Of a DNA stretch of 47,774 nt, positions 6,820 to 15,076 are shown one piece after another. This DNA comes from Microcaldota archaeon (lineage in GTDB: Archaea; Micrarchaeota; Micrarchaeia; Anstonellales; Bilamarchaeaceae): NCBI GenBank assembly GCA_018813505.1, contig JAHJBM010000003.1, positions 1 through 47,774 of the forward strand. The letters are read 5' to 3'. Below the pieces are notes generated by a model. That model saw nothing but the letters and a program-made list of their open reading frames with translations. It had not been told where the DNA came from and searched no databases. Position 1 is the stretch's first letter, and each line of letters starts with the position of its first letter. Both the position numbers and the translations under genes were made by a program.

Positions 6820-7956
6820 TTAGATAGAATTACAGTCAGGAGAAGCATGATCCCCAATGCGAGGACCGGTACTCACCTCAACATCAGGAGATTTGTATGG
6901 AAAATAAACAACAACAAGTGATTCAAATTGTGGACTTTCATCACCATGATTATTTGATGCCGAAATAAGAGTATGGGATGGTAAAATACCAGCACGCAAC
7001 ATACCGGCGTTGAATACTGCACGCAATATTGGATTGAATAATCGCGCTTCAGCAAATATTACTGCATCAGGATGCAGTTCCAGTATATTAGCTCGCATTT
7101 GTAAGAGTAGATAAGTCATTATACCCGATGCACGGTATGGTTCAGAAGTTGCAGCACTACCCATTTCATAAAGATGGATGATCTGCCCCCCAAATTCAAG
7201 TTCAGCATGTTCTGCTATAAGTGAAGCTGCAACTTTACCACAACAACCAGTCATGAGTAAAGGAATGTTATTTGGAACAAGTAGATGCTCAACAGTTCCC
7301 ATATTCAATGGTTCCGGATATTTTGAATACGTGGCACGAAGAAGGGATAATAATTGATCCTTTCTTTGATATGGATCATCAATGAGTTTTAAATCCTCAT
7401 TAAGCCTTGCGCGTGCTTCAGAAATGGTCGTAGGTGTTTTTGCAGATTCTATACGACTGATTGATTGAGTGTCCCTATGAAATCTTTCCCAATCTCTTCT
7501 CTCGTGAGCATTTACACCAAGATGAGCCAACTGGACTGAACCAGATAAACTATCTAGAGATCTAAAAGCATAAGATATATCAAAATTAGAATCAAGAAAC
7601 AAACTAGGTCGTAGATGTGATAATTGACGTGCTACACGCAGTTTTATTTCATCTTTAGGTACACCGGCAACCGATAATGCACGTTTTAACTTGGTTTTGG
7701 CACGATCATAGTCGGATTCAGCTCGTAACAACGCTTGTTCAGTATCTGAGGTAATCATAGCTAATACAGAGGCTCGCGTTATTCCTTCGATAAGAACTCC
7801 CTTGTTAAATGCTCCGGAATTTTTGACCAAAGTTGGGAGATATTTGGCTGAGACCATTAAACCTGGGAATGTACCTTTGGCCCTTTGAACTTTTGGATCC
7901 TTATTTAATTTTAAGGGCCACCCAGCTTTTAAACTTCCTTCGCAACCTTCTCCCAA
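6820..7956 (-). CDS. GNAT-like acetyltransferase domain protein (putative)
   Basis: C-terminal half has acceptor-loop-like 'HLYEMGSAATSEPYRASGIMTYLLLQMR' followed by a GNAT-like 'FAEARLFNPILRAVFNAGM'; N-terminal ~200 aa unassigned. Confidence 0.55.
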   Translation of the reverse strand: MGEGCEGSLKAGWPLKLNKDPKVQRAKGTFPGLMVSAKYLPTLVKNSGAFNKGVLIEGITRASVLAMITSDTEQALLRAESDYDRAKTKLKRALSVAGVPKDEIKLRVARQLSHLRPSLFLDSNFDISYAFRSLDSLSGSVQLAHLGVNAHERRDWERFHRDTQSISRIESAKTPTTISEARARLNEDLKLIDDPYQRKDQLLSLLRATYSKYPEPLNMGTVEHLLVPNNIPLLMTGCCGKVAASLIAEHAELEFGGQIIHLYEMGSAATSEPYRASGIMTYLLLQMRANILELHPDAVIFAEARLFNPILRAVFNAGMLRAGILPSHTLISASNNHGDESPQFESLVVVYFPYKSPDVEVSTGPRIGDHASPDCNSI

Positions 7957-8155
7957 AGTATCACCGTATTAATCATTTATATGAATATTCTGAATATGTG
8001 TCATGCAACAATCAATATGACAACTGGCCAACACACCAATATATCTAAGCACACAATATTTTTAAATGATATGTTTTTTCTTTAAATATAAACGAGATAG
8101 CATTTACCCGAATTATTATGATTTGTTCATTCAGTCATCACCATCGGGCAGAAGA

Positions 8156-8455
8156 GCAAAACTTTTGCAATTCGGCGCTTTCGATTGAAACGCAAGGCGT
8201 TTCAATGGATGTTGAGAATGACCAATTGAAAGACGATTCTTTCAACATTGCAAACGACGTTTCGTTTGCAAGGTGCTCAGGAACGAAATGTCGTTCCTGA
8301 CATGATCCATTGTTTGGGTACGCCGAACAATCGGACGATTCATTCTCGAGCATGCTCGTGATCGAGTATCGATCACGACACCATTGGAGCAAGTGCGCTT
8401 CAATTGATCCGATGGAATTTGATTCCATGAACCATAAATCGAAACGTTGATTTAT
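8156..8455. repeat. Array of ~10 consecutive unrelated short hairpins ('hairpin comb')
   Basis: Inverted repeats read directly: 8156-8168, 8184-8206, 8226-8245, 8248-8271, 8277-8300, 8309-8331, 8356-8378, 8383-8404, 8412-8428, 8434-8455, most with 7-10 bp stems and short loops. Confidence 0.85.
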
Positions 8456-8552
8456 CAATCCTCCCAAAGCTAAAGACTTGAGGTATCCGCGCCGAATTTC
8501 AAATGATAAACCACACCAATTTAAATCTTTTCCACTCACCGATTGTAAAAAG

Positions 8553-9047
8553 TTACCGTTTTTCTCTTTTTTCAGATATGATATCCACAAGGGGATTGAA
8601 ACAACTTGGCCCTTTATGTGTATATAGGATATGATAGGTGTTGGTTCTTAAAATGGCCTGACTGGCCTGTATATGTTTGAGCAATACCAAAAGGCTTTCT
8701 CTGGTCCTAACCTTGAAAATCGCCATACAGTCAATTCCACCAGTAACAGAATATAATGCAACGATCTCAGGTAATTTTGCAAGATCATTCAAAACTTCCT
8801 CGTTTTCTAACTGGCTTGATTTTACTTTCATGATTATTACGCCTTGAATGTCATAACCAACTGCAGAATAGTCAATATCAGCTTGATACCCCCGAATAAA
8901 TTTGGAACTTTCAAGTTTTTTTATTCTTTGGAGAAGAGTATTTGGATGCATTTTGAGCTTTTGTGCCAGTTCCCTCATTGGCCTTTTGCAATCATTTCTT
9001 AATTCTCTCAAGATCATCAGATCGATCGTATCGATTTTATCTTTCAT
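8553..9047 (-). CDS. Lrp/AsnC-family transcriptional regulator
   Basis: N-terminal HTH (DTIDLMILRELRNDCKRPMRELAQKLKMHPNTLLQRIKKLESSKFIRGY) and RAM-like domain; probable start at 9047. Confidence 0.88.
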   Translation of the reverse strand: MKDKIDTIDLMILRELRNDCKRPMRELAQKLKMHPNTLLQRIKKLESSKFIRGYQADIDYSAVGYDIQGVIIMKVKSSQLENEEVLNDLAKLPEIVALYSVTGGIDCMAIFKVRTRESLLVLLKHIQASQAILRTNTYHILYTHKGPSCFNPLVDIISEKREKR

Positions 9048-9268
9048 ATGCATCACCAATTTATAATAAACAAACAACACAATGAATTAAATCTGTATTT
9101 TTTTATAATGTTTCTATAGTTTTTATGTGTTTTACCATTATAAATATGTAACATATGATTTAAAAAGCCATTGTTTGCCATAGGATGACACCGATCACCC
9201 TTATTTTTGGTTTATAAAATAGAAAGATTTAAAAAACTCAAACAAAAGGGCTATACATAGATTTAGAG

Positions 9269-14629: not shown

Positions 14630-15076
14630 ATGGAAGACAAAATCGACGAAAAGGATATTACGATTCTTTATATACTGGAAAAACACGCAGAATATACAGT
14701 AAGACAAATCGCAAAAAAAAGCTTGCTGGCACCGACTACAGTACATGCCAGGATAAAAAAATTAAAAAAACTGGGAGTAATTAAAAGATATACGATAGAG
14801 ATAGATAAAAAGAAGATAGGTAAAAAAATCGGAGCGTATGTAATGATATCAGTTGACCTCAAATCATTAAAAGAAAAGAACAAAACGCAATATGACTTAT
14901 ACGAAGAAATCAAAAAACTTCCAGGTGTTGAAAGAGTAAATATAGTAACAGGAGGCACTGATCTTATCGCTAGAATTAGAGTAACTGATATGGAAGAATT
15001 TGACAAGGTTCTTATGGAGAAAATACAATTATTAGAAGGAGTTTCGAAGACCCAGACTATGGTTATAATGCATTAG
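14630..15076 (+). CDS. Lrp/AsnC-family transcriptional regulator
   Basis: HTH 'KDITILYILEKHAEYTVRQIAKKSLLAPTTVHARIKKLKKLGVIKRY' plus RAM domain. Confidence 0.88.
   Translation: MEDKIDEKDITILYILEKHAEYTVRQIAKKSLLAPTTVHARIKKLKKLGVIKRYTIEIDKKKIGKKIGAYVMISVDLKSLKEKNKTQYDLYEEIKKLPGVERVNIVTGGTDLIARIRVTDMEEFDKVLMEKIQLLEGVSKTQTMVIMH

Follow-up and report, generated by a model that had tools for sequence, protein, structure and literature searches.

A hairpin comb in a micrarchaeotal genome is probably a nested pile of dispersed double-hairpin units

A comb of hairpins that lies between two genes of an archaeal chromosome raises a simple question: is it one structured RNA gene, or is it built from units of another kind? 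The window, which is the whole 47,774-nt stretch of DNA analysed here, is contig C67 of a 1.54-Mb MAG (G000; 91% complete, 95 contigs), whose asparaginyl-tRNA synthetase has 71-74% identity with those of Candidatus Micrarchaeota MAGs and of one archaeal MAG. The comb (8156-8455) is flanked by an Lrp/AsnC gene (8553-9080, minus strand) and by a 378-aa ORF (6820-7956, minus strand). The C-terminal part of this ORF is possibly GNAT-like, as judged by eye; regulators of the Lrp/AsnC type are strongly multiplied in the genus (17 tblastn matches in G000 with one query). We read the comb as a nested pile of short, mobile, non-coding double-hairpin DNA units and not as one RNA gene, with a probability of about 0.82.

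Anatomy of the hairpin comb

The hairpins that an earlier note on this DNA had listed are present where it placed them, and their density far exceeds that of shuffled sequence. Counted as non-overlapping and perfect (stem at least 7, loop 3-9), seven hairpins lie within 8156-8455; 1000 dinucleotide shuffles gave 0.27 on average and never more than 3, and this stretch has the highest hairpin density within the window. It folds at -128.8 kcal/mol, against -87.2 +/- 5.3 for the shuffles (z -7.9 on the plus strand, -6.2 on the minus strand). The picture of ten consecutive hairpins stands in so far as the hairpins are real; they do not form a plain row, as distant arms pair around other hairpins and the whole is thus nested. 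Indeed, TTGAGAATGA (8212-8221) pairs with TCATTCTCGA (8340-8349), with several other hairpins enclosed between the two. The stems had also been described as unrelated in sequence, whereas family motifs (TCRNGRWCGA; ATTGAA) are common to them. No direct repeats of the CRISPR kind were found, which agrees with the earlier view that this is not a CRISPR. No tRNA or tmRNA was found, and an ORF across the comb (8138-8590, minus strand) is without a family match and is taken as accidental.

The building block is a unit of two 9-12-bp stems, with loops of mostly 3-5 nt and with 1-6 nt between the hairpins, near-palindromic as a whole. The BC unit (~58 nt) is built as TG-hairpin-GCATGC-hairpin-CA, with the consensus TG-[TCRNGRWCGA NNNN + complement]-GCATGY-[hairpin]-CA, and the AD unit follows the pattern CRAT..ATGG-a-CCAT..ATCG. 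The recurring unit that contains them, T3, is larger than 8156-8455. The features in the window are the following:

8118-8507, unstranded: T3, the outer element, with left end ATGATTTG and right end CAAATGAT, closed by 15-nt outer arms (8164-8178 and 8489-8503) that are 93% complementary; based on copies on C93, C76, C75 and C40, which have both ends in common and unrelated flanks.
8182-8406, unstranded: AD1, with left hairpin CGATTGAAACGC-AAG-GCGTTTCAATGG (8182-8208), an A, the BC1 insert and right hairpin CCATTGGAGC..GCTTCAATTG (8381-8406); based on reading of the sequence, empty AD units elsewhere and AD covariation.
8210-8380, unstranded: BC1, with TG, left hairpin arms (8212-8221 and 8340-8349) opened by an insert, GCATGC (8350-8355), right hairpin (8356-8378) and CA; linker and arm by pattern, and a match of the BC covariance model (R1) at 8326-8384 with 39.9 bits.
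8222-8333, unstranded: AD2, in the loop of the BC1 left hairpin, with hairpins at 8222-8247 and 8307-8333 and BC2 between them; based on reading of the sequence and on a left hairpin that has the same sequence in another G000 comb (L006).
8248-8302, minus strand: BC2, with TTGCAAACGA-CGTT-TCGTTTGCAA, linker GGTGC, TCAGGAACGA-AATG-TCGTTCCTGA and CA; R1 match at 8242-8305 (minus strand) with 55.7 bits.
8407-8461, plus strand: AD3, with CGATGGAAT-TTG-ATTCCATGA and CCATAAATC..GATTTATCA; match of the AD model (R2) at 8407-8461 with E 1.2e-9.

From the outside inwards, the nesting order is T3, AD1, BC1, AD2 and BC2, with AD3 beside AD1.

Copies, distribution and insertion of the units

The earlier note had set the comb apart from an amplified REP-type unit. 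That distinction has to be given up, as the comb consists of dispersed, multi-copy double-hairpin units. A DNA search of G000 and 58 other genomes gave scattered partial matches, in which, on reading, the joints are the same and the stems differ. In a family-wide search, the linker with one arm (GAGCATNYTCGTNATC) occurs at 13 places, and the control matches none. Eleven of these places lie in units with both hairpins intact (some are identical copies); the other two are the window, where an insert opens up the left hairpin, and a place in G013 that looks like chance. With places taken as half of the both-strand match counts, the BC covariance model finds ~18 in G000, ~29 in G024 and none in six congeners. 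Of the 301 genomes available for the phylum, 16 carry BC, of which 15 belong to a single family and the last to a sister family; the AD model matches 23 of 43 family genomes, several of which are without BC. The units are missing from congeners and from whole sister genera; mobile elements typically show such a scattered occurrence and changing copy number. A BC pattern scan of viral contigs gave no match.

Strictly intergenic positions account for 30 of 39 units; ORFs, most of them small, or the ends of genes extend over the others. The neighbouring genes may be tandem, divergent or convergent; an array of terminators was ruled out, since units also occur between divergent genes. Two near-identical BC copies (L172 and L173, on C12 and C55 of G024) lie just upstream of the genes for ribosomal proteins L10 and L19e, with similar leaders. 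G000 also holds a second, AT-rich family of hairpin combs, with the hairpins TTTGACATGATACTTCATGTCAAA and TTTTTATTGTACTATAAAAA in common, at three places at least:

5911-6049 of L018 (C36): AT-rich comb.
1286-1420 of L022 (C76): AT-rich comb.
13929-14012 of L026 (C40): AT-rich comb.

Copies on C4, C74, C77 and C78 are 98-100% identical over 138-151 bp and have unrelated left flanks, with the contig ending inside or just past each of the four; the G000 copies in general lie partly at contig breaks. The gap between the enolase and TPR-AAA genes is 276 bp long with a comb in G000, and 37-75 bp long without hairpins between the same gene pair in six congeners. There is no hairpin comb downstream of the Lrp orthologues of congeners, and no congener retains the two flanks of the window's comb together, so that the empty site of this comb is visible on the Lrp side only. 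The T3 copies on C93, C76 and C75 are without the AD/BC material found at ~8180-8457 in the T3 of the window. The AD joint ATGG-A-CCAT is empty in L012, L015 and L022 and filled by BC in L004, L006 and L010, with no duplication. BC also occurs in hairpin loops, and flank-to-flank stems of at least 6 surround BC in 9 of 40 units, where 2.8 are expected. A T3 copy on C76 of G000 (minus strand; L022 ~14640-14770) splits a HEPN ORF, which comes into frame once the insert and one ATGATTTG are taken out, with a PF05168 match of 1.3e-12; the junction lies only about seven residues into the domain match, thus the split is supporting and not decisive. Since the sequence differs among most units, the demonstrably recent copies are only a few. 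The elements are non-coding, dispersed, nested, recently multiplied and conserved in structure.

Covariation and rival explanations

The earlier suggestion that it is the pairing, and not the sequence, that is kept is borne out by co-varying stems in the BC and AD units. Across 11 BC units, pairing holds in 98.6% of cells, and both sides change at 14 of the 20 pairs, which no shuffle matched. The 796 cells of 41 distinct units comprise 767 Watson-Crick, 13 G-T, 7 A-C and 9 other cells, counts that may be affected by the collection of many copies with a model that rewards pairing; G-T, at 1.6%, is barely over A-C at 0.9%. All four Watson-Crick pairs are used at several stem positions, and two-arm changes between copies exceed one-arm changes by ~5:1 (643 vs 134 at 20-30% divergence, 4116 vs 897 beyond it). 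Covariation in the AD unit is like that in BC, and the models score similarly on both strands of each unit.

Three other explanations deserve consideration. First, the comb could belong to a multi-copy family of structured non-coding RNA, or be an RNA gene built of many hairpins, in which selection acts on the transcript and so preserves the stems. The strong covariation and the stable plus-strand folds would suit such a family; however, structured RNAs usually contain many G-U pairs, and the rarity of G-T here, the similar scores on both strands, the varying order and number of the units, their nesting and the occurrence of every gene orientation around them all argue against it. An Rfam scan of the comb gave no match at gathering score. 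A discrete transcript had been suggested from a TATA-like stretch (~8080) and a T-tract (~8560), but neither belongs to the portion found again at other places, and no promoter or terminator travels with the unit; together with the strand and orientation evidence, this leaves the suggestion unsupported. We consider an RNA family improbable. The few G-T pairs and the matching strands point instead to hairpins of DNA, or else to template switching from arm to arm, a process that homogenises the arms of inverted repeats (PMC8604942). The earlier alternative of an ssDNA or recombination substrate comes nearest to the evidence.

Second, the units could be binding arrays useful to the host (sites for a nucleoid protein, a topoisomerase, replication or recombination), spread and kept by selection. 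The motif TCRNGRWCGA conserved at the base and top of the stem, the conserved linker GCATGC and the extragenic position are consistent with this, but the absence of the units from congeners and whole sister genera, a number that ranges from 0 to ~29 places per genome, and the HEPN ORF split by one copy make it very improbable. Third, an origin of the palindromes on the spot, by chance or by local slippage through template-switch errors and with no insertion of units, is scarcely credible: such switching (PMC8604942) would explain the scarce G-T intermediates, but linkers and ends common to unlinked places, near-identical copies whose flanks are unrelated and the orthologous gap of 276 bp vs 37-75 bp all require the transfer of units.

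We keep to the reading of the comb as a nested pile of dispersed mobile units, which are most likely genomic parasites, a benefit to the host being unproven. Units go into the DNA between genes and, in many cases, into one another, at a hairpin loop or at the joint between hairpins; later arrivals thus lie inside earlier ones, and the whole still folds. How they spread is a more tentative matter. The mover may be a trans-acting enzyme, or replication in which the template is switched on single-stranded hairpins. The units would travel as single-stranded hairpins or by way of them, with an exposed loop or joint as the likely target. The arms may be kept matched, even as their sequences drift, by arm-to-arm template switching, perhaps together with selection by a hairpin-binding enzyme. 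We also propose, as an idea that is unlikely to hold in full, that the spread is tied to no known transposase: single-stranded hairpins would enter exposed loops or joints, and arm-to-arm copying would rewrite both arms, so that shape is inherited while sequence drifts.

As for an enzyme, Y1_Tnp (PF01797) and RAYT (NF047646) have no match in G000, and RAYT is over cut-off in 0 of 43 family genomes. Neither Y1 (5 of 15 BC-bearing family genomes vs 5 of 28 others) nor reverse transcriptase, RT (7 of 15 vs 7 of 28), gives a usable co-occurrence signal. A Y1 remnant adjoins a comb on C97 of G024, and RT genes lie ~200 bp from BC units on C26 of G011 (L125) and on C105 of G031. The RT of G011 was not adopted as mover; by eye, it resembles those of diversity-generating retroelements. 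G000 has an RT gene of its own (L196, C15:7529-8005), which is split into two frames and is also diversity-generating retroelement-like by eye. The 378-aa protein next to the comb was likewise set aside as a mover; it has no Pfam or PDB match, and a close-relative scan gave no relatives in named genomes.

Comparison with known elements and implications

The palindromes of Volvox carteri organelles average ~50 nt, are intergenic and are inserted into one another (PMC2670323), and Allomyces mitochondria carry double-hairpin elements according to the account that PMC2670323 gives in citing Paquin et al. 2000. The archaeal units are like the organelle palindromes (PMC2670323; PMC2800124) in that they are short, have loops of 3-5 nt, are intergenic and come as single and double hairpins, with units within units and composite repeats at several places. 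They differ in being chromosomal elements of a DPANN archaeon. Such elements are too short and too divergent for homology to be read from them, and the likeness is one of architecture. In the sponge RHE, stems are conserved and loops change, whereas here the stems vary nearly freely with compensation.

REPINs and BIMEs (PMC3116915, PMC6006769) have in common with the present units a mobile pair of inverted hairpins, an extragenic position, compensatory changes and clusters formed by insertion. However, there is no unit-flanked Y1 gene in G000, and in place of a GTAG/GTGG foot, BC has TG..CA or GCATGC and AD has RTCC/CC; thus, with no RAYT over cut-off and no such foot seen, we do not count the units among the REPIN/RAYT family. 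They are also like archaeal and bacterial MITEs (PMC10969869), being short, non-coding and dispersed, with near-identical copies in unrelated flanks, but they differ in being self-nesting hairpin pairs. Neither a consistent target-site duplication nor a parent transposon with matching ends came to light among the copies read. One T3 copy does have ATGATTTG on both sides, but every T3 copy that was read carries ATGATTTG at its left end. In the open-access literature, we found nothing relevant on such elements in Micrarchaeota or DPANN. We regard the comb as a newly recognised archaeal version of the nested, mobile palindromes that are known from organelles and have bacterial cousins.

Units of this kind sit at the assembly breaks of MAGs and can be confused with structured regulatory RNAs in covariation screens. 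With ~40 distinct copies, almost free stems and natural filled and empty sites, their movement and the matching of their arms are directly testable. If our reading is true, self-nesting double-hairpin parasites of algal and fungal organelles also inhabit the chromosomes of DPANN archaea.
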